Shown: positions 1,548 through 24,187 of the stretch, in pieces
Layout: every line of letters begins with the position of its first letter
Numbering within the stretch: the stretch's first letter is position 1
Origin: Gemmatimonadota bacterium
Lineage (GTDB): Bacteria > Gemmatimonadota > Gemmatimonadetes > Longimicrobiales > Gaopeijiaceae
Assembly: GCA_040882465.1 (NCBI GenBank)
Contig: JBBEBG010000036.1
Location: 186,001-250,000, forward strand
DNA: 64,000 nucleotides
Direction: 5' to 3'
Made by a program: the position numbers and the translations under genes
The notes under the pieces: generated by a model
The model's database searches: none
The model's input: the letters and a program-made list of their open reading frames with translations, nothing else
What the model was told of the DNA's origin: nothing

Positions 1548-1666
1548 GCTGAGGGGGGGTCGGGGGGCTGCGGCCACCGACCGTCCGGGGGCAGACGCCA
1601 GGAATTGTTCAGATGGGAAAAAGTACGGCAGGTCGGTGGCCGCAGCCCCCCGACCCCCCCCTCAGC
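1548..1666. repeat. 35-bp inverted repeat overlapping the hemB stop codon
   Basis: Bases 1548-1582 pair with 1631-1666 over 35 positions with one bulged base (seven G against eight C). The 48-base spacer holds a T-rich run when read on the minus strand. The right arm contains the TGA stop of the rimI-hemB gene (1664-1662), so the transcript would fold immediately at its 3' end. A role in transcription termination or mRNA 3' stabilisation is likely but is inferred. Confidence 0.7.
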
Positions 1667-3218
1667 CGCGCCCCAACCTCCGCGCGTATTCCCGCGCCCA
1701 ATAAGACACGATGATGTCCGCCCCCGCCCGCCGGATCGAGAGGAGCGCCTCCTCCATCGCGCGCTCGTCCAGCCATCCCCGCTCGATCGCCGCCATGATC
1801 GCCGCGTACTCCCCTGAGACGTGGTAGGCCGCCACGGGCGCCCCTGTTTCTTCCTTCACCCGCCGGATCACGTCGAGGTACGCGAGCGCCGGCTTGACCA
1901 TGACGATATCCGCGCCCTCCTCGAGATCGGCGAGGACCTCGCGGATCGCCTCGTCCGCGTTCGCGGGGTCCATCTGGTATCCCCGCCGGTCACCGAAGGC
2001 GGGTGCCGAGTCAGCGGCATCGCGGAAGGGCCCGTAAAACGCCGAGGCGTATTTGGCGGCGTAGCTCAGGATGGGCAACTCGACGAATCCGGCTCCGTCC
2101 AGCGCGGCACGGATGGCCCCGACCCGGCCGTCCATCATGTCCGAGGGCGCGACCATGTCGGCGCCCGCCTCGGCATGGCTCACGGCCGTACGGGCCAGGA
2201 GGTCGAGCGTCGGATCGTTCAGCACCGTCTCGCCGTCCAGAACGCCGCAGTGTCCGTGCGTCGTGTATTCGCAGAGGCAGACGTCGGTCACCACGAGAAG
2301 GTCCGGGAGCTTTCCTTTGAGATCCCGAACGGCGCGTTGGACGATTCCATCGGCCTTCCAGGCCCCGGTCCCCTGTTCGTCCTTATTTTCCGGAATTCCG
2401 AACAGGAGGACCCCTCCGAGCCCGAGCTCGAACGCTTCGCGCGCGTCTTTCACCGCCTCGTCCACCGACGTGCGCGCGACTCCCGGCATCGAGGGGATGA
2501 GGGTGCGCACCCCCCTTCCTCCTTCGACGAAGAGGGGAAGGAGCAGTTGGCCGGGAGAAAGGCGGGTCTCGCGGACGAGCGCGCGGAGGCGTTCGCTTCC
2601 CCTCAACCGGCGGCCGCGATAGGTCGGTAGCTCCGTCATCGGTGCTCCGGCTCGAGAAGCGAGGGCGCTCTCTTCGGGGGGGCGAAGAGGCGGGGACGAA
2701 AGATCGAGGCGCAGGATCCGCGCATCCTCTCGGGGATGATCATAATAGTGCTCGCGGACCCCCACCTGGCGGAACCCCCGCGAGCGGTAAAGGGCGATTG
2801 CCGGGTCGTTGGAGGCCCGCACCTCGAGGAAGACGGACCGGAGGGCGGAGTCCCGGGCGAATTCGAGGAGATGGTCCAGGAGGTCGCTCCCGACCCCCCT
2901 TCCTCGCACTTCGGGCACCACGGCCAGATTTACGATCTCTCCCTCGTCCGCAGCCCAACGGAGGATTCCGTGGCCGACGAATCTACCTTCCGGCTCCGGC
3001 AATTGAGCCACGAGAAAACGAACCCCCTCGCGGCGCACCAGCGCCCTCAACGAGGCGTAGTTCCAGGGGACCGAATACGCCGCCGCCTCTACCTCCACGA
3101 CGGAGGGGAGGTCGCTTGGACGCGCATCTCGAATGCGGACCGCAAGGCGTTCCCGGTCCTGGATAAGCCGGGAGCCGATTGGCGCGGGCGCCGGTTCCGG
3201 TGGAGCCGGATCCTTCAT
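1662..3218 (-). CDS. hemB: In-frame fusion: RimI-type N-acetyltransferase + delta-aminolevulinate dehydratase (HemB)
   Basis: One 518-codon frame joins two normally separate proteins. Residues about 25-175 are a GNAT acetyltransferase of the RimI type (acetyl-CoA loop [12 protein letters not shown]-terminal ALYRSRGF), which acetylates the N-terminus of ribosomal protein S18. Residues 194-518 are a complete 325-aa HemB, which condenses two 5-aminolevulinate to porphobilinogen in haem synthesis. HemB carries the zinc-site cysteines in [13 protein letters not shown] and both catalytic lysines (SYAAKYAS and MVKPALAY; 196 and 249 in HemB numbering). The internal ATG at 2639 has a GGAG seven bases upstream, so HemB may also be made alone. 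The first ATG overlaps the tsaB stop as ATGA, matching the common tsaE-tsaB-rimI order. No stop or frameshift separates the halves. Whether the fused polypeptide is stable cannot be told from sequence. Confidence 0.9.
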
Positions 3219-12306: not shown

Positions 12307-15300
12307 TCAGGCGCCGTCTTCCAGAATTCCCTCGCGGACGAGATCGCCGAGCTGGACCCTCGACTCCACCTCCATTTTCTTGAAGATGGCCGACAGGTGA
12401 GTGCCGACCGTTCGCGGTGAGATCCCGAGCTCCCGGGCGATGGACTTGTTCGACTTTCGCTCTCCCACGAAGCGGGCGATCTCCGCCTCGCGCGCCGTCA
12501 GGACTCCGGATCCCGGCGAACCCGACGACCGGGTCGGCGGGCGAGCGCCGACCTCGCGGAACTGTTCTCTCGCTTTCTCCAGCTCCGGTGCGGCTCCGAG
12601 ACCGGCCAGGATATCGTGTACCCGGCGGAGCTCGCGGACCGCGGCCTCGCGGTCACCCAGCTCCGCGAGCCGGCCGGCCAGCTGGCGGCGGAGGCGGGCC
12701 GCGTCGGGGAGGAGACCCATCCCCTCCAGCCCTTCGGCCCCTCGTTCCATCGCCCGTGCGCCCCCCGCGAGGTCCCCCCGAAGCCAGGTCACCAGCGCGT
12801 GGCAGATCTCGGCCCAGGCGAGCCCCAAGGGGTTCTCGAAGCGCTCGGCATCTGCGCGAAGACGGTGCGCAACCCGTTCCGCGCGCTCCAGATCGCGAAG
12901 GTGAAGCGAGGCCTCCGCGATGGTCGGAAGAAGCCGCAGGATCGCCCAGGCCGTGTAACCGCTCCGGTCCACTAGTGCCAGTCCAATCTCACCCTCTCGG
13001 ATCGCCTCCCGGAACTCTCCTCTCGCCAGGTGGAGGGCCGCCAGCCCCGATTGCACGAGGATGGCGGTGTGCGTCGTCGCGGGGCCGGCATCCTCCTGGA
13101 GTCCGGCCAATGCCCTGGCTTCGGCGATCTCAAGATCGGCCGTGTCCAGGTCCCCGGTTCCCAGATGGAGAATCCCGGAGAGGACGAGGAGTCGGGGGAG
13201 GCTGAGCCCTTGATTCAACTCCCGCGCCATCCGAATCGCCTCGGCGGCGAGGTTCGCGCCCCGGTCCCACTGGCCCAGTCGCGCGGCGTAATCTATTTCG
13301 ACCTCGGACAGGCGAAGCTGTAGGTGGGGAGAGCCCAAGCGGTCGGCGAGCTCGGCCCCGAGGTCCAGGTGCCGCCGCGTCTCGCGCGGGTGGCCGGTGA
13401 GTCCTTCCAGCACCGCCATCGCCCAATGTGCGGCGAGCTGTCCCGCCCGGTCGCCCGCTTCCTCGGCGAGGGCGAGGGCGGCCCGCCCATGTTCGCGCGC
13501 CTCCTTGGTCGGACCCGACCATGTATGGAGAAGGATCAGATTCATGTGGGCCGACACCCGGATCCCGACATCCCCGGTTTCGCCCCCCAAGCGGAGCGCC
13601 TCCGTGGCCTCCTCGTGCGCTTCCACCGGACGCGCCGTTTCCTGGAAACATGCGCTCCTGGCGAGCCTGAGCCGCGCCTCCATCTCCCGGCTCCCCGCGG
13701 CCCGGGCCTCGTTGAGCCCTCGATGCAGGTGCTGGAGGGCCTCTTGGGGACTTCCGCCCCAAAAAGCGGCCAGCCCGAGCCTCCGGTCCACGGCGGCGAG
13801 CCGTTCGTGCTCGCCGGTGGCCGCGATCGCCTCTCTCAGGGCGAGAAGGTGGCGGGCCGCCTCGGCGTTTTTCCCCCGTCTCTGCTGAGCGCGCGCCAGA
13901 TCCTCCAGGAGACGAGCCCGCTCGGCTACCATATCCCCCGGGGCGCCGACCGGGAGCGCGGCAAAGGCGCGCTCGAGATAACGAACGGCCTCGCGATCGG
14001 CGTGGGCCTCGAGAGCCTGACGCCCGGCGGCCCCCAGGTAGAGGGCCGTTCGCACTCGATCCACCTCATCCCCCGCGTGCATCAGATGCTCGGCCAGCGC
14101 CACCGCGTGGTCGATGGCCCGATCTCCGTAGAGCGACTCGAGAGCCGCCGCCAACTTTCCGTGCATCCCGCGCGCGCGCGCCGCCCCGATCTCAGCGTAG
14201 ACAACCTCTCGGACAACAGGGTGGGTGAAAGCGTAGAGCAGATCGGTCCCCTCCATCTCTTCGACCAGAACCGAGGCCGACGTCAGCTCTTCGAGCGCCG
14301 CGATAAGGACCGCTTCCGGCACGGGCACGGCGCGGGCGAGGAGCTCGAACTTCGTTCGGACCCCGGCAACGGCTACCGTGTCGGCGACGACCCGGACCGT
14401 CGGAGAGAGGGGGCGCAAGCGATCGAGGATGAGGTCCCGAACCGATCCGGGCGGTGTGACTTCGTCGAGACTCCAACCGAGCCAACGTCCCGCGTCGCGC
14501 CGAATCCGGCCCGCCGAGACGAGTTGCCCCAGCACTTCCGTCACGAAGAGTGGGTTCCCCCCCGTCCAGCGCGCCAGCTTCTGGGTGAAAGGGCGAACCA
14601 CGTCGGGTGCCACGCCGAAGCCGCGGCTCACAAGCTCCTCGATGGCGGACGCGTCCAGCGGCTGGAGCATACGGACCTCGAGCCGCTTCCCCTCGGCGAG
14701 CGAACGGGCGGCCTCGAGGACGGCGGGGCCGCTCGGCGCCCCCTGAGGATCGAGGGTGACCAACGTCATCAAGGGGATGTCGAGGTCCTGGCGGATCAGG
14801 AAATGGAGCAGCTCGAGCGACGAGGGATCGGCCCATTCGACATCCTCCAGCACCAGCAGGAGAGGTCTATCGCGTCGAAGGCGATCGAGGAAGGGTGGAA
14901 AGTTCCAAAGGAGTCGGTTCCGGAGGTCGGGAATCGCGTCCGCCGTCCCCGCGGCGGCTGCGTCGGCCGAAACCGCGAGGGATGGGCAAACGAACTGGAA
15001 TTCGGGCGCACCCCGCGTGAAGCTCAGAAGCGCCGCGGGGTCCTGGTCTCGGGAGAGCGGGTCGAGGAGGTCACAAAAGAGCGAATAGGGTACTCCCGTC
15101 TCCATCGCATAGGCCGCGGCCGACACGGCGAGGAAGCCACGGCGCTCGGCTTCCTCCCGGATCGCCGCCGCCAGACGGCTCTTCCCCATTCCCTGGGGGG
15201 CGCAAAGGAGGACCGACGCGCTTTTCCCCGCGGTGGCGCGGTCGAGCGCGCCGAGGAGGAGAGCGTACTCTTCCGGCCTCCCACACAGGGGGAGTCGTTC

Positions 15301-15327
15301 CGGAATCGAAGGACGGGTAGCTTGCAT
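12307..15327 (-). CDS. Large ATP-binding LuxR-family transcriptional regulator (LAL type)
   Basis: This 1006-residue regulator has an N-terminal AAA/STAND ATPase (Walker A APQGMGKS, residues 43-50; Walker B region LLLVLEDVEWAD near 160). A long helical TPR-like region (about 400-920) follows, then a C-terminal LuxR helix-turn-helix (about 940-1000, LTAREAEIARFVGE then NKSIARELGISPRTVGTHLS). The order matches MalT/LAL activators, which bind a ligand in the helical part and activate nearby promoters using ATP. It lies 105 bases downstream of the acyl carrier protein gene on the same strand, so it may control or belong to the membrane protein-radical SAM-ACP set. The ligand is unknown. Confidence 0.92.
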   Translation of the reverse strand: MQATRPSIPERLPLCGRPEEYALLLGALDRATAGKSASVLLCAPQGMGKSRLAAAIREEAERRGFLAVSAAAYAMETGVPYSLFCDLLDPLSRDQDPAALLSFTRGAPEFQFVCPSLAVSADAAAAGTADAIPDLRNRLLWNFPPFLDRLRRDRPLLLVLEDVEWADPSSLELLHFLIRQDLDIPLMTLVTLDPQGAPSGPAVLEAARSLAEGKRLEVRMLQPLDASAIEELVSRGFGVAPDVVRPFTQKLARWTGGNPLFVTEVLGQLVSAGRIRRDAGRWLGWSLDEVTPPGSVRDLILDRLRPLSPTVRVVADTVAVAGVRTKFELLARAVPVPEAVLIAALEELTSASVLVEEMEGTDLLYAFTHPVVREVVYAEIGAARARGMHGKLAAALESLYGDRAIDHAVALAEHLMHAGDEVDRVRTALYLGAAGRQALEAHADREAVRYLERAFAALPVGAPGDMVAERARLLEDLARAQQRRGKNAEAARHLLALREAIAATGEHERLAAVDRRLGLAAFWGGSPQEALQHLHRGLNEARAAGSREMEARLRLARSACFQETARPVEAHEEATEALRLGGETGDVGIRVSAHMNLILLHTWSGPTKEAREHGRAALALAEEAGDRAGQLAAHWAMAVLEGLTGHPRETRRHLDLGAELADRLGSPHLQLRLSEVEIDYAARLGQWDRGANLAAEAIRMARELNQGLSLPRLLVLSGILHLGTGDLDTADLEIAEARALAGLQEDAGPATTHTAILVQSGLAALHLARGEFREAIREGEIGLALVDRSGYTAWAILRLLPTIAEASLHLRDLERAERVAHRLRADAERFENPLGLAWAEICHALVTWLRGDLAGGARAMERGAEGLEGMGLLPDAARLRRQLAGRLAELGDREAAVRELRRVHDILAGLGAAPELEKAREQFREVGARPPTRSSGSPGSGVLTAREAEIARFVGERKSNKSIARELGISPRTVGTHLSAIFKKMEVESRVQLGDLVREGILEDGA

Positions 15328-15432: not shown

Positions 15433-15675
15433 TCAATCGCCTCGCTGGACCTGCGCCAGGAAGTCGCGCAGAGTGCGGAGACGGTCCATCTCCCCGTCGG
15501 GAATCCGGACGTCGTACGCTTCTTCGACCTCGGCGACGACCTGGAGGAGCGACAAGGAGTCCAGACCGACGGCCCGAGCGAGGTCCTCGTCCGGTCCGAA
15601 GGCATCCGGAGCCCGCGCGGTGACGCGACCGATCACGGCGCGCACGTAGGCTTCGGCCTCGCTCGCGGGCCTCAT
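15433..15675 (-). CDS. Acyl carrier protein
   Basis: This 80-residue acidic carrier protein has the phosphopantetheine attachment motif GLDSLSLLQ; Ser40 is the modified residue. Helix III (EEAYDVRIPDGEM) has the usual spacing. The ATG at 15675 overlaps the radical SAM stop as ATGA, which fixes the start even though the frame is open further upstream. It is a dedicated ACP: no ketosynthase or other fatty-acid gene is next to it. Its partner is most likely the coupled radical SAM protein, which would then act on a carrier-bound substrate. That is an inference from translation coupling. Confidence 0.88.
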   Translation of the reverse strand: MRPASEAEAYVRAVIGRVTARAPDAFGPDEDLARAVGLDSLSLLQVVAEVEEAYDVRIPDGEMDRLRTLRDFLAQVQRGD

Positions 15676-16991
15676 CCGACGAGCGCCTCGGATGGATTCA
15701 ACCGCTTCACAAGCTCGATATAATGGCGCCTCCTCCGGTTCGTCGCTTCGTCCGAGTAGAGCTCCCGGAAGAGCCATCGGACTCCCGACTCGAGCTCGTC
15801 CACCGTCATCTGCATCGGGACGTGATTTACGTCGAAGAGGGTGCACCGATCCCAGAAGCGCTCCTGGAGCAGCCGCCCCTCCTCCTTCAGGCGATCATGG
15901 AGGCGGGTTCCGGGAAATGGCGTGAGAACGGTGACCTGGACTTCGATCAGCCCCGATTCCCGAACGAAGTCCCGCACCTGCTCGAAGATCTCCGGCGTAT
16001 CGGCGTCGAGACCCACGATGAAGCACCCGTTCACGGTGACGCCGGCGCCCTGGAGGGTGTCTATCGTCCTGAGGTAGTCCCCCCGCCGCCTCGCTTTCCA
16101 GTTCGACCGATCTATTCCCGCCAGGCTCTTCGCCTGCGGGCTTTCGAAGCCGATCAGGACCTGCGAGCAGCCGGCCTCGTATAACAGGCGCGGAAGTCCC
16201 GGATGCGCCGCAACGCGGACGTCGGTCTCGGTGAACCATCGCAAGTCGTACTTCGCGAGCATCCGGAGGAAACGCTCGGACCACTCCCGATTCACGAAGG
16301 TGTTGTCGTCGGCGAGCTCCAGAAACGGACGGTCGAAGAGGGAGGCGACCCGGGCCACCTCCCGCTCGACGTCCGCCACCCGCTTCTGCTCGAAACGTGG
16401 CGTGAAGATTTTCGATGCTGCACAAAAGTCGCAATCCAGGGGACATCCTCGCGACGTCTGAATCGTGATCCGATTGTATGGCCGCCCGACGAGTAGTTCG
16501 AAGCGGGGCATCACCGGAGTCCCGCGGCTGTAGAAATTCCGATTGCTTCCGCGATAGAGGGGGCGCAACTCTCCTCGGACGAAGTCCTCGAGGAAGGTGG
16601 ACCAGACCTCCTCGGCTCCCCCGCAGACAACGGCATCCGCGTGCTCCAGCGCTTCGTCCGGAAGCAACGAAGCGTGCGTTCCACCCATGACGACTGTCGT
16701 GCCGCGCTCTCGATAACGATCGGCCAGGGCATACGCTTCGTAGGCTTGGGCGCTGAAGGTCGAGATCCCGACCAGGTCGAAGTCCGGAAGTGTGCCGGGA
16801 ACGGCATCCACCTCCAGATAGGCGACCTCGTGCTCCGGTGGCGTCAGCGCGGCCACGACGAGGAGACCGAGGGACGGGAGGGACGCGATCACCTTTCCCC
16901 GGTTCACGAATCCCGGAAGGGTGACCCCGAGCTCGACGAGCTCGCGGCTGCGCACGCGCACCCCCGACATCGCGATGAGCCCGATCTTCAT
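15672..16991 (-). CDS. B12-binding-type radical SAM enzyme
   Basis: The protein has 439 residues. The N-terminal half (about 1-150) has a Rossmann-like cobalamin-binding fold (LVGISTFSAQAYEAY, VVMGGTHASLLPDEAL, CGGAEEVW), although the DxHxxG base-off motif is not evident. The radical SAM core has the iron-sulfur triad C183-x3-C187-x2-C190 within SRGCPLDCDFC. Later elements include FLELADDNTFVNREW and QVLIGFESP. Family members (HpnP, BchE, TsrM-like) carry out methylations or ring-forming reactions. The exact reaction cannot be read here. It is coupled by ATGA to the membrane protein upstream and to the ACP downstream. Confidence 0.88.
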   Translation of the reverse strand: MKIGLIAMSGVRVRSRELVELGVTLPGFVNRGKVIASLPSLGLLVVAALTPPEHEVAYLEVDAVPGTLPDFDLVGISTFSAQAYEAYALADRYRERGTTVVMGGTHASLLPDEALEHADAVVCGGAEEVWSTFLEDFVRGELRPLYRGSNRNFYSRGTPVMPRFELLVGRPYNRITIQTSRGCPLDCDFCAASKIFTPRFEQKRVADVEREVARVASLFDRPFLELADDNTFVNREWSERFLRMLAKYDLRWFTETDVRVAAHPGLPRLLYEAGCSQVLIGFESPQAKSLAGIDRSNWKARRRGDYLRTIDTLQGAGVTVNGCFIVGLDADTPEIFEQVRDFVRESGLIEVQVTVLTPFPGTRLHDRLKEEGRLLQERFWDRCTLFDVNHVPMQMTVDELESGVRWLFRELYSDEATNRRRRHYIELVKRLNPSEALVG

Positions 16992-17425
16992 GCCGGTCTC
17001 CGTTCACGCACCAGTCCGGCACAGATCAGAGCCACGGCCACGAAGGTCGCCGTCGCCGGAAGCGGGAGGAGATACTTCCACGGCTCGTGGAAGGCGGCGG
17101 CCGTGAGGATCGCCGGCATGAGCGTCGCCCCACAGATCAGGCTCGCTGAGGCCACCTTCTTTCCCGTTCGGCCGAGGGCCAATCCGGGAAGCTCGTGCCC
17201 GAAGAAGATGTTCGTGAGGCCGAGCGCCATCGCGGCGATGTGCCCCAGGCGAAGGAGCCGCCGGGGAAGTCCGTCGTATTCCGCGAATCGCGCGGGGGCG
17301 GGGGCCGGGCCGTCGAAGGCCCAGAGGCCGAGGACCATCCCTCCCGCGATCCCGGCGAGAAAAAGAGACCAGCCGACGAGCCGGTTCCGCCGGGCGATCG
17401 GGTCGGTCGAATTGGGGTCGTCCAT
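16988..17425 (-). CDS. Small multi-pass membrane protein of unknown function
   Basis: From ATG 17425 (GGGAGG four bases upstream) this is 145 residues with four likely membrane segments, about 18-36, 57-77, 85-105 and 118-138. Histidines occur at the edges or within helices (RLGHIAAMALGL, FFGHELPG, AAFHEPWKY), which could bind haem or metal. I do not recognise a family. A longer frame to 17620 is arginine and proline-rich and rejected. Its stop overlaps the start of the radical SAM gene (ATGA), so the two are made together. It may anchor or supply the radical SAM/ACP pair at the membrane, which is inference. Confidence 0.7.
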   Translation of the reverse strand: MDDPNSTDPIARRNRLVGWSLFLAGIAGGMVLGLWAFDGPAPAPARFAEYDGLPRRLLRLGHIAAMALGLTNIFFGHELPGLALGRTGKKVASASLICGATLMPAILTAAAFHEPWKYLLPLPATATFVAVALICAGLVRERRPA

Positions 17426-19994: not shown

Positions 19995-20403
19995 GGGCTT
20001 CCCCGTCAGAGGTTCGGCCTATCGGAGGCCTTCAGCGGGAGGAGAACTTCGATGTCGCTCACCGTCCTGGCGACAGTGGCCGTCGTAGTCCGCTTCCGTC
20101 GGTGTTGGACGGTCCCGACGATCCGAAGCCGAAGGTAACCGTGTCCCTCACCGAGGACTACCCGTTCCTCGCCAGATCCATCCCGGAAGCCACGTTCCTT
20201 CACGCGGCCCGCGCGTTTCCGTCCGGGAGCACTCGTGGGCCGCCCTCCTCGCTTGCTGAGCGGGGCACGGGTTCGCATCTTGCGATTCCGATCCTCGCCC
20301 CCGCGCAGGACCCCGGGAGACTTCCGTCCCTCGCGCGAGCGTGAGGACGCCACCTCCGAGGAGCCGTGCCGCCACTCTTCATCCGATGCAAAGGATACTC
20401 CTC
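19995..20403. other. 409-bp divergent intergenic region
   Basis: It lies between the starts of the cytochrome c gene (minus) and the RidA-like gene (plus), so it should hold both promoters. I see no convincing -35/-10 pair, no hairpin with a T-run and no protein-like frame. The short open frames here are arginine and proline-rich with no motifs. Confidence 0.5.
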
Positions 20404-21714
20404 ATGACGAACGCTTCACACGGTTTCCGAGCAGCTTCGCGCTTCTTCGTCGCAGCCCTGTTCCTCGCCCCGGTGCTCTGGAGTGGAGGGGTCGAGGGCC
20501 AGGAGGTCTTTCCGCTTGCGGGGGCGCCCTATGCGGCCGGAGTGATGGCGCCCGCCGGCGCGACACTCGCCGTGTTCGGGGGAATCGAGGGTGAAGGGAG
20601 CGATGTCGGCGCGGCCGCGGCAGCGGCGCTCGGCGCGATGGAGGCACGTCTGAGCGAAGTCGGGCTGGACCGGAGCCACGTTCTCAAGGTCCGAGCGGGT
20701 CTCGCCCCCGGCGATGGTACGGAATTCACGGCGTGGGATGGCGCGTGGAGAAGCTTCTATGGTTCGGGACAGCCGCCGGCGCGCACGACGGTGGGCTCCT
20801 CCGGGGTGCCGGGGAGCGCGCGGATCGTGCTGGACGTAGTGGCCGCCTTCCCCCTCGACCGCGGACACCGGGCGGCGGTGGACGGTGCCCGCGCGACGGC
20901 GAACCCGAACCTGAGCTATGTGGGCCCCGCGGGGAATCCAACCGCGATCGTGGCTACGAGCCCGGGGCTCTTCCTCTCGTCGGGCGTGCTTCCCAACCGG
21001 AATTCCCTCGCCAACCCCGAGGCGATGGAAGACCACATGCGCGGCGCGATGAACGGCCTCGCGAACACGCTCGCCGACCACGGGCTCGCCTGGGCGGACG
21101 CATTCTTCGTGCGGGTCTTGCCGACGCCCCAGCCCGACCGGGCCACGGTGGACTTCGCCGGATGGACCCCGGTCTTCGACCGGCTGAGCGAGCTGGCCGG
21201 CGGGCAGGGGCCGGCATGGACGATGTGGGCGGCCCCCGGCTTCGGAACCGGAAACAACCCGCGATTTGTGGAGATCGAAGTGTGGGCCGTCCCGCAGGCA
21301 CCGATGCCGGCGTTCGAGGTTCTCGACCGGGAGTCCCAAAATCCCAATCTGCGCATGACCGGGACGGGTTTCATCGCTGCGGGGGCGATGGTGGCTCCCT
21401 ACCCTGAGCTCGTCTTCCTCTCCGGAATCGTAGCGCCCGAAGGGACAGCGGCGACCGAAGAGGGCATGAGCGTGCTCACCCAGATGGAGGAGCGGCTCTC
21501 GCTGATGGGTGCGACGATGGCGGATGTCGCGGAGCTCCGCGTTTACCGCGTCGCGGGCGAGGAGGGGTTCAACGACGCGTACGGCTTGTACTTCAATAAC
21601 GCGGAGCGGAATCCGCACAAGCCGGTCCGAACCAATTATGTCGTGCAGAGCTTGCCGGGTGGGCGGACGGTGGAGGTCGAGGCTGTCGTCGTGCGTCCGC
21701 CGCAGGGGTTCTGA
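20404..21714 (+). CDS. Exported three-domain RidA/YjgF-family protein
   Basis: From ATG 20404 (AAAGGA upstream) this is 436 residues with a Sec signal peptide (about 1-33, cut near VEGQE). It contains three YjgF/RidA-like units, about 35-150, 165-297 and 305-431. RidA trimers hydrolyse reactive 2-imino acids to keto acids plus ammonia using a conserved Arg. That Arg is present in unit 1 (PPARTTVG, Arg127) and unit 3 (KPVRTNYV, Arg409). Unit 2 has Trp at the equivalent place (GPAWTMW). Normal RidA is about 130 residues and cytoplasmic, so the tandem exported form is unusual. It lies beside an exported amine oxidase, which would produce imines. In-frame starts at 20341 and 20386 have poorer upstream sites. 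Confidence 0.85.
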   Translation: MTNASHGFRAASRFFVAALFLAPVLWSGGVEGQEVFPLAGAPYAAGVMAPAGATLAVFGGIEGEGSDVGAAAAAALGAMEARLSEVGLDRSHVLKVRAGLAPGDGTEFTAWDGAWRSFYGSGQPPARTTVGSSGVPGSARIVLDVVAAFPLDRGHRAAVDGARATANPNLSYVGPAGNPTAIVATSPGLFLSSGVLPNRNSLANPEAMEDHMRGAMNGLANTLADHGLAWADAFFVRVLPTPQPDRATVDFAGWTPVFDRLSELAGGQGPAWTMWAAPGFGTGNNPRFVEIEVWAVPQAPMPAFEVLDRESQNPNLRMTGTGFIAAGAMVAPYPELVFLSGIVAPEGTAATEEGMSVLTQMEERLSLMGATMADVAELRVYRVAGEEGFNDAYGLYFNNAERNPHKPVRTNYVVQSLPGGRTVEVEAVVVRPPQGF

Positions 21715-21775
21715 CGATCCGGATTGATCGGCCCGGGTGGGCGCGGCCGGCCCGGGCCCGTGCCGAGAGGGTGAA

Positions 21776-24187
21776 ATGAAAGGTCGAGCCAGCCGAAGCC
21801 CCCGCCAGGGAATGGTCCCTCCGATCCGGTCGGTGCTGGGGGCCGTCCTGGCGGCCGCCGCTTTCGCGGGGACTGCGCCCCGCGAGGCGGTCGCGCAGAA
21901 TCAGGTCACGCGTCCCGTCGTCATCGTGGACGGCGTCGTGCTGGGCGAGGCGCCGACCCCGCCGCGGGTGCGCCCGCTTCCGAACGGCGTGCTCGGCGGG
22001 GTTCCGATGACGGCCGCGGACAGCGCCGCCTGGACAGTCGTGAGACGCCTCGACTTCGAGCACTATAAGTCGCTCGTGGCGGGGCTCGCCCAGTTTGGGG
22101 ACCGCGAACAGGGAACGGAACGGAACGCCCTCGCCGTGGACTGGATCGAGGCCCAGCTCCGGAGCTGGGGATACGAGACCGAGCGGCTCCGGTACGAGTA
22201 CCAAGGACAACCTCGCGAACAGGTCTACGCGACGAAGGTCGGCTCCACCGCTCCGCACGAGATGTACATCCTCGGCGCCCACATGGATGGACGGGGCGGT
22301 GGCGAAGCGGTGAACGACAACGCCTCCGGCACCGCGCTGGTCATGGAGATCGCGCGCGTCCTCGCCTCCCCCGACGTCCGCACGGACCGCTCGGTCCGCT
22401 TCGCCCTTTGGAACAACGAGGAAACCGGGCTGAATGGGGCTCGGGCGTATGTCGAGCAGCGAGCCGAGCTGCAGGGGATCGAGAGCCCCGCCGGATCGGG
22501 CGCGTATCCGGAGCCGAGGTGGATGGGGATGATCCAGCACGACAAGGTCATGTTCGACCATGGGAATCCGGTTCAGGACGAGCAGGTGCTCGACGCCGAC
22601 GTGGACGTCGAATATCAGATGAACTCCACGCTCTGGGAGGAGTCCTCCCGTCTCGCCGTCGAGCTGATCAATGCGAATCGGATGTTCGCGACGAATCACC
22701 CGGCCGCGGCGAGCAATTCGATGAGCAACACGGATTCCACCCCCTTCATGAATCTCGTCGCCTCGGTCAGCGTGCGTGAGAATCGGCGACTCTTCGAGAT
22801 CGGCTTGGGCTCCGACCCGCACTGGCACCAGCCGACCGACCTTCTGGAGACCTTCGACGACGCGGACTATCGCCTGGGCTTCAATGCCATGCAGACCACG
22901 CTCGGGGCCACCGCCCGGCTGGCCGGCGCGCGGGTCGCGCCGCTCCGAGCCCAGGGAGGCGGCGCGCTCGTGGGACTCGACGCGGAAGTCACGGCGCTGC
23001 GCGCCCGCATGATCCACGAACGGGCGATCGCGACGGACACGCACACCGACATCAACGCGGGGAACTTCACGGCGAGCGAGCCGAACTACCTCACCGGACT
23101 CGAGAACACGCAGGTGGATCTTCCCTCGATGGAGGCGGGCGGGCTCGATGCCGTCTGGTTCTCGATGTACCAGGGGCAGCGGGACGACTTCACGGCGGAA
23201 GGCTACCGGGGCGCTTATAACACGGCGATGGACAAGGTCCTGGCGATCCGCAGGCTCACCTCCGAGCTCGCGCCGAGCCGGATCGGTCTCGCCCTGACCG
23301 CGGACGACGTCCGGAGGGTCGCCGCCGAAGGCCGCCTCGTCGCGCTCATGGGGATGGAGAACGGATATGCGCTCGGAGAGGACGTCGAGAACGTGCGACG
23401 GTTCGCCGAGCTGGGCGTCCGTTACCTCTCGCTTGCCCACAACGGGAACAACCAGCTTTCCGATTCCCATACGGGTGAAGTGGACGGCTACCGCTGGAAC
23501 GGGGTCTCGCCCCTCGGGGAGGAGGTGATCGCGGCGGCGAACCGGTGGGGGATCATTCTCGACATCTCCCATCCCTCGAAGGAAGCGAACCTCCAGACGA
23601 TGCGGCTGTCGCGGACGCCGGTGATGGCCTCGCACTCGTCCGTCCGCGCGCTTGCGAATCACAGCCGCAATCTGGACGACGAGCTGCTGCGCGCGCTCCA
23701 GGACAATGGCGGCGTCGTGCAGATCGTGGCTTTCAACTCCTATCTCGTCACGCCGCCGCCCGAGCGCGCTCCCGCGGTCCAGGCCCTTCAGGCGGACTTC
23801 GGACTCTCCGGCGGAGGGCAAGCCATCCAGGCGGCTCTCGCGGAGATGGCGCCCGACCGGCGCGCCGCGTACGACCAGCGGATGGCGCAGATCGACGCGC
23901 AGTGGCCGGTCCCACCGCCTGCGACGGTGAGAGAGCTCGTGGACCACATCGACTATGTCGTGGACCTGATCGGTGTGGATCATGTCGGAATCAGCTCCGA
24001 CTTCGATGGAGGCGGCGGAATCGAGGGGTGGGATGACGCTTCGGAGACCTTCAACGTGACCCTCGAGCTCGTGAATCGCGGGTACACCGAGGAGGAGATC
24101 GTGAAGATCTGGGGCGGCAACCTCCTCCGCATCATGGAGGAAGCCGAGCGCGTCGCGGAAGAGATGGGAAGAGAGATCGCCGACTAA
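21776..24187 (+). CDS. Exported double peptidase: M28 aminopeptidase + M19 dipeptidase
   Basis: From ATG 21776 (GAGAGGG upstream) this is 803 residues with a signal peptide (about 1-40, ending VAQNQ). Residues about 85-390 are an M28 zinc aminopeptidase, with ligands GAHMDGRG (His169), NDNASG (Asp181), NNEETG (Glu215/216), NTDSTPF (Asp320) and DPHWHQPTD (His349/351). Residues about 400-795 are an M19 membrane-dipeptidase domain, with DTHTDIN (His423, Asp425), MGMENGY (Glu528), DISHPS (His599), MASHSSVRA (His620) and SSDFDGGG. M28 enzymes release N-terminal residues. M19 enzymes cut dipeptides and accept D-residues at the second position. Both metal sites look complete, so the chain is probably bifunctional. 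The gap after the RidA gene is 61 bases. Confidence 0.9.
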   Translation: MKGRASRSPRQGMVPPIRSVLGAVLAAAAFAGTAPREAVAQNQVTRPVVIVDGVVLGEAPTPPRVRPLPNGVLGGVPMTAADSAAWTVVRRLDFEHYKSLVAGLAQFGDREQGTERNALAVDWIEAQLRSWGYETERLRYEYQGQPREQVYATKVGSTAPHEMYILGAHMDGRGGGEAVNDNASGTALVMEIARVLASPDVRTDRSVRFALWNNEETGLNGARAYVEQRAELQGIESPAGSGAYPEPRWMGMIQHDKVMFDHGNPVQDEQVLDADVDVEYQMNSTLWEESSRLAVELINANRMFATNHPAAASNSMSNTDSTPFMNLVASVSVRENRRLFEIGLGSDPHWHQPTDLLETFDDADYRLGFNAMQTTLGATARLAGARVAPLRAQGGGALVGLDAEVTALRARMIHERAIATDTHTDINAGNFTASEPNYLTGLENTQVDLPSMEAGGLDAVWFSMYQGQRDDFTAEGYRGAYNTAMDKVLAIRRLTSELAPSRIGLALTADDVRRVAAEGRLVALMGMENGYALGEDVENVRRFAELGVRYLSLAHNGNNQLSDSHTGEVDGYRWNGVSPLGEEVIAAANRWGIILDISHPSKEANLQTMRLSRTPVMASHSSVRALANHSRNLDDELLRALQDNGGVVQIVAFNSYLVTPPPERAPAVQALQADFGLSGGGQAIQAALAEMAPDRRAAYDQRMAQIDAQWPVPPPATVRELVDHIDYVVDLIGVDHVGISSDFDGGGGIEGWDDASETFNVTLELVNRGYTEEEIVKIWGGNLLRIMEEAERVAEEMGREIAD

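Follow-up and report, generated by a model that had tools for sequence, protein, structure and literature searches.

A Widespread Radical SAM–Membrane Protein Gene Pair, Probably Altering Lipid Acyl Chains, and Its Acyl Carrier Protein Branch at a Gemmatimonadota Locus

Related Radical SAM Systems and Membrane Proteins

Action on lipids is established or proposed for the related radical SAM enzymes HpnP and HpnJ and for the ladderane enzymes (PMC3908369, PMC13142503, PMC2649909). The ladderane clusters of anammox bacteria encode a radical SAM enzyme with a B12 domain, a dedicated acyl carrier protein (ACP), and fatty acid synthesis (FAS) genes, and action on ACP-bound acyl chains is proposed (PMC2649909, PMC9821293). 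In the swf clusters of sponge symbionts the B12-domain enzyme SwfC is likewise coupled to an acyl chain borne by an ACP domain, within a system that relies on a type I PKS/FAS together with a reductase-sulphotransferase (PMC3908369). Hopanoid and tetraether radical SAM enzymes are also among the nearest concepts (PMC13142503, PMC11186832). Of these, HpnJ, HpnP, and HpnR belong to the class with an N-terminal B12 domain and act on lipids. Literature searches on lipid pathways joining an ACP to a B12 radical SAM enzyme yielded the ladderane, swf, and tetraether/Gms systems only. AprD4, a radical SAM diol dehydratase, acts on a free aminoglycoside substrate with neither a carrier protein nor a membrane partner. 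Among small membrane proteins, styrene oxide isomerase (SOI) and the MAPEG enzymes are four-helix trimers acting on lipophilic substrates, and SOI binds haem b via H58 at the trimer interfaces (PMC11374702).

The locus described here lies in a 64,000-nt stretch (the window) from a Gemmatimonadota bacterium (GCA_040882465.1, JBBEBG010000036.1); all window coordinates are positions within that stretch. The source genome comprises 3.5 Mb in 41 contigs. The relevant features are as follows.

16988-17425, minus strand: c1, a small membrane protein of 145 aa, four helices in the model; no Pfam or NCBIfam family
15672-16991, minus strand: radical SAM enzyme (rSAM), 439 aa, assigned from Pfam domains, the CxxxCxxC motif, and the model
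15433-15675, minus strand: dedicated ACP, 80 aa, assigned from PF00550 and the DSL site
16988-16991, minus strand: ATGA overlap of the c1 stop and the rSAM start, read from the sequence
15672-15675, minus strand: ATGA overlap of the rSAM stop and the ACP start, read from the sequence
12307-15327, minus strand: LAL-type LuxR regulator, 1006 aa, AAA_16 plus LuxR HTH; a neighbor, not a conserved part

The original prediction that the first three genes form a coupled unit is borne out by their shared strand and their two ATGA overlaps. The arrangement is not due to chance, because relatives of all three proteins show it as well. No described pathway with this trio was found in the literature, as had been anticipated. 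Unlike the ladderane clusters, the trio lacks an FAS gene set and has c1 as a constant partner; unlike swf, it has neither a type I PKS/FAS nor a reductase-sulphotransferase. The c1 partner is absent from the ladderane, swf, and hopanoid/tetraether systems as far as the available portions of their descriptions show. The module is a variant of the lipid- or carrier-directed radical SAM systems.

The large LAL-type regulator pointed out earlier is present on the same strand, 105 bases downstream of the ACP gene, and carries the features of its class (AAA_16, 81.7 bits; GerE, 58.2 bits; N-terminal AAA/NTPase and C-terminal LuxR HTH regions). No relative of the regulator, however, occurs in any of the fetched loci, including that of the closest relative, L028 (73-75% rSAM identity), in which different genes lie downstream. 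The regulator was therefore rejected as part of the unit. A mobile element was also considered and rejected, since searches of plasmid and phage collections, at the limits applied, gave no match to rSAM.

Conservation of the c1-rSAM Pair

A scan of genome contigs with rSAM gave 48 loci, and a search of 395 Gemmatimonadota genomes gave a match in 12. The set analyzed comprised 53 orthologous loci, window included, with the distant loci L072, L073, and L084, one truncated locus, and one duplicate left out. The rSAM orthologues span more than a dozen phyla: the 53 loci come from Gemmatimonadota, Planctomycetota, Verrucomicrobiota, Kiritimatiellota, Omnitrophota, Zixibacteria, Chloroflexota, Poribacteria, Bdellovibrionota, Pseudomonadota, Acidobacteriota, Bacteroidota, and candidate phyla. 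By an iterated profile, the c1 gene adjoins rSAM in 46 of the 53, and weakly in one more, mostly lying directly upstream and often overlapping. An rSAM match at E<=1e-110 is present in eight of the 395 Gemmatimonadota genomes and c1 likewise in eight, with seven genomes common to both sets; in each of these seven the two genes touch (Fisher p 2e-13 for co-occurrence across the 395). Pseudogulbenkiania subflava (L066), represented by a cultured strain, has the pair without an ACP. A second small membrane protein of about 130 aa, c2, adjoins rSAM in 27-28 loci of the ACP-free branch (examples are L035:3713-4108 and L053:9362-9736); the two members tested have no Pfam match.

The conserved core is thus c1 with rSAM, and the ACP is a clade-specific addition. 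Conservation of the whole trio in relatives, on which the original prediction depended, is found within one clade of rSAM, while across the family only the pair is constant. The pair is a genuine, uncharacterized module that probably alters lipid (fatty-acyl) chains.

The Dedicated Acyl Carrier Protein

The window ACP matches PF00550 at 53.5 bits and has an intact DSL phosphopantetheine site (D39, S40), and D39-S40 is invariant in the ten operon ACPs. The claim that this is a private ACP was upheld: the source genome has eight PP-binding matches, of which this is one, and the housekeeping acpP lies elsewhere, in a plsX-fabD-fabG-acpP-fabF cluster on contig C40 (genes named from translations by eye). 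A housekeeping role for the window ACP is accordingly ruled out. It shares 21% identity with the ACP of the C40 cluster and falls under the AcpP model cut-off (TIGR00517, 31.8 vs 70.45 bits).

A maximum-likelihood tree places the window rSAM in a nine-member clade supported at 98/93, and an ACP gene adjoins rSAM in seven of the nine. The two genes overlap by four bases in all seven ACP-bearing members whichever comes first: the ACP gene precedes rSAM in five and follows it in the window and L028. Every one of the ten ACP-profile matches in the window and about 704 kb of relatives' DNA adjoins rSAM. Sampling of the ACP clade outside Gemmatimonadota consists of one scan. Outside the clade an ACP occurs in three other lineages (L050, L072, and L074). 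ACP identities are low (21-35%), and recruitment of the ACP on more than one occasion is possible, as hinted, without good support, by the ACP tree.

Elsewhere in the source genome, a separate carrier-protein locus (L101, G000:C20:58000-76000) encodes near-identical ACPs at C20:63637 and C20:70270, about 6.6 kb apart, and an AMP ligase at C20:68590.

The Radical SAM Enzyme

Membership of rSAM in the radical SAM superfamily is supported by PF04055 (55.2 bits, cut-off 29.5) and by the CxxxCxxC motif, whose cysteines C183, C187, and C190 are invariant in 45 orthologues; mean column identity across these 45 sequences is 61%. An N-terminal B12-binding-like Rossmann domain (PF02310, 41.1 bits, cut-off 32.1) precedes the radical SAM motif, and the C-terminus is DUF4070-like (29 bits). 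Thirteen positions separate the two rSAM branches, one of them position 125, which is glycine in all nine ACP-clade members and typically glutamate in the other branch. Among curated NCBIfam models, the enzyme scores far below the cut-offs for its best relative there, HpnJ (TIGR03471, 86.9 vs 577.6 bits), for the ladderane type (TIGR04072, 39.4 vs 360 bits), for AprD4 (NF033070, 42.7 vs 500 bits), and for BchE. The hopanoid enzymes HpnJ, HpnP, and HpnR, although of the same domain class, are all far below cut-off as matches.

The closest solved fold to the AlphaFold2 model of rSAM (pLDDT 90) is that of AprD4 (Z 34.2, rmsd 2.4 over 382 residues), followed by MgmA (Z 28.9), CysS (28.6), TsrM (25.7), and OxsB (25.6), to all four of which the model aligns over both domains. 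AprD4 has the B12-domain fold and is reported to work without cobalamin. The earlier designation of rSAM as a B12-type enzyme is consequently apt for the fold, given the PF02310 match, but describes the fold only. Radical dehydration or deoxygenation of the AprD4 kind, with no cobalamin involved, is possible though doubtful as an alternative to B12-dependent methylation. AprD4 leads the fold list by a clear margin over MgmA and is also the top PDB sequence match, yet its sequence identity to rSAM is only 18%, PF02310 exceeds its cut-off, and the cobalamin enzymes CysS, TsrM, and OxsB follow in the list. This alternative concerns the chemistry and is compatible with a module acting on acyl chains. 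Methylation, dehydration, rearrangement, and ring formation are all candidate reactions.

The Membrane Protein c1

Invariant residues in c1 are W19, R55, R59, and H62, the last being its one invariant histidine, early in helix 2. The AlphaFold2 model (pLDDT 94.9) consists of four long helices. Among small proteins it is most like SOI (Z 11.9, rmsd 3.1 over 131 residues; Foldseek TM 0.70 to the query), with MAPEG enzymes next (Z 9-10), but Z under 13 is unsafe for helical bundles and the likeness may reflect a common helical arrangement only. A Foldseek search returned no match at E<=0.001, and the c1 profile against PDB sequences gave chance matches only. Homology to SOI is unsupported by sequence, with no HMMER match and an hhalign probability of 0.4%. 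H62 lies near SOI H58 by simple register, without sequence support.

In Rhodopirellula sp. SM50 the rSAM neighbor (L062:4643-6049) is a 468-aa chain of three fused c1 domains (83, 46, and 55 bits), two of which keep the histidine. This fusion offers independent support for a trimer and suggests that c1 works as one. It is very unlikely, in our estimation, that c1 is a haem-binding, SOI-type trimeric enzyme and that the pair would couple radical SAM functionalization to a subsequent haem-catalyzed step in the membrane, giving an undescribed acyl structure in more than a dozen phyla.

Lipid-Type Neighbors and the Nature of the Substrate

The original prediction was of radical chemistry on an acyl or amino-acyl group bound to the carrier, and for an acyl group such chemistry is supported as probable. 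The acyl alternative is favored over the amino-acyl one because the AMP ligases beside the ACP in four relatives are fatty-acid-ligase-like. Those of L030, L032, and L033 are orthologous (46-51% identical) and encoded immediately upstream of the ACP gene, while the corresponding position in L031 is taken by a member of a different ligase subfamily (27%). For all four, the top-scoring models are those of long-chain fatty acid ligases. Another ligase is present in L072. A full MFS-acyltransferase-acyl-ACP synthetase (Aas-type) protein is encoded directly upstream of rSAM in L048, an acyltransferase-synthetase (LPLAT-AAS) near rSAM in L029, and an Aas-like synthetase a few genes upstream in L058. 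Ceramidase-like membrane genes, below the Pfam cut-off and 47% identical to each other, lie beside rSAM in two Pseudomonadota loci (L066:6776-7627 and L071:9385-10215). Absence of ketosynthases, also part of the original prediction, holds at the window but not throughout the family, since in an Omnitrophota relative (L074) the gene order is FabF-type ketosynthase-ACP-c1-rSAM. Taken together, and coming from different phyla, these neighbors favor a lipid acyl substrate, none being decisive singly.

It counts against the acyl reading that no ligase adjoins the trio in the window or in L028. Nor does the source genome have a convincing orthologue of the operon-type ligase (its closest ligase reaches 35% identity across most of the length, vs 46-51% among operon ligases), and an orthologue search in genome G411, which is 76% complete, was empty in a run without a positive control.

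Some loci have unrelated neighbors that stand against an acyl-lipid substrate. In L059 (5879-7639) and L037 (2142-4162), from unrelated phyla, an aminotransferase and a GNAT domain, fused in the former and encoded by two genes in the latter, directly precede the c1-rSAM pair. These genes would fit a trio making a specialized metabolite, with an amino acid or other small acid on the ACP and c1 exporting or binding the product. Free-standing ligase-ACP-radical SAM sets are found in natural-product clusters, and LAL regulators often control such clusters. We nevertheless regard this explanation as unlikely: the operon ligases score far better against fatty acid ligases than against amino-acid adenylation models, the LAL gene is not conserved, and PKS, NRPS, and tailoring genes are absent from the window neighbors examined, which are of housekeeping and peptidase types.

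Alternatively, the core pair might act on a non-acyl membrane lipid (a quinone, a hopanoid, or another terpenoid), with the ACP in a side role. Most family members lack an ACP, as this would allow, and the best curated NCBIfam relative of rSAM is a hopanoid enzyme, albeit far under cut-off. Against it stand the repeated links to ACPs, acyl ligases, and a ketosynthase, and the neighbors read include no hopanoid or quinone genes; we consider a non-acyl substrate quite improbable.

A Proposed Role for the Module

The reading that fits best is radical modification of an acyl chain held either by a carrier or in the membrane. We put at about even chances the explanation in which a widespread two-gene module modifies lipid acyl chains and the trio is its ACP-using branch. 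The dedicated ACP would be phosphopantetheinylated and loaded with a fatty-type acid, by an operon-encoded AMP ligase in several relatives and, in the window, either by an enzyme encoded elsewhere or directly out of fatty acid synthesis. The rSAM enzyme would then cleave SAM via its [4Fe-4S] cluster and abstract a hydrogen from the acyl chain; methylation, rearrangement, dehydration, or ring formation would follow. The c1 protein, probably as a trimer, might serve as a membrane anchor for rSAM or for the lipid product, or carry out a second step. We infer this acyl substrate, order of steps, and membrane protein role from the gene neighborhoods and predicted folds. Since most members of the wider family have no ACP and many have c2 instead, a carrier is not necessarily needed for the core reaction.

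A compact and nearly inseparable pair in Gemmatimonadota, Planctomycetota, Verrucomicrobiota, Omnitrophota, and other phyla points to a modification not yet described, with membrane lipids as its most likely target, and brings with it an uncharacterized membrane protein family of its own. For the many enzymes, yet to be identified, that add methyl groups, rings, and cross-links to acyl chains in bacteria, the module provides a defined candidate. In the ACP branch the carrier is soluble, and mass spectrometry could catch the substrate on it.

Other Open Reading Frames in the Window

Three further reading frames of the window have unusual or composite domain content. At 1662-3218 (minus strand) a GNAT acetyltransferase domain is joined to delta-aminolevulinic acid dehydratase (HemB), either an unusual fusion or a mis-started frame. 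A protein with two RidA/YjgF-type (L-PSP) stretches is encoded at 20341-21714 (plus strand), and at 21737-24187 (plus strand) a single open reading frame encodes two domains, peptidase M28 first and membrane dipeptidase M19 second.
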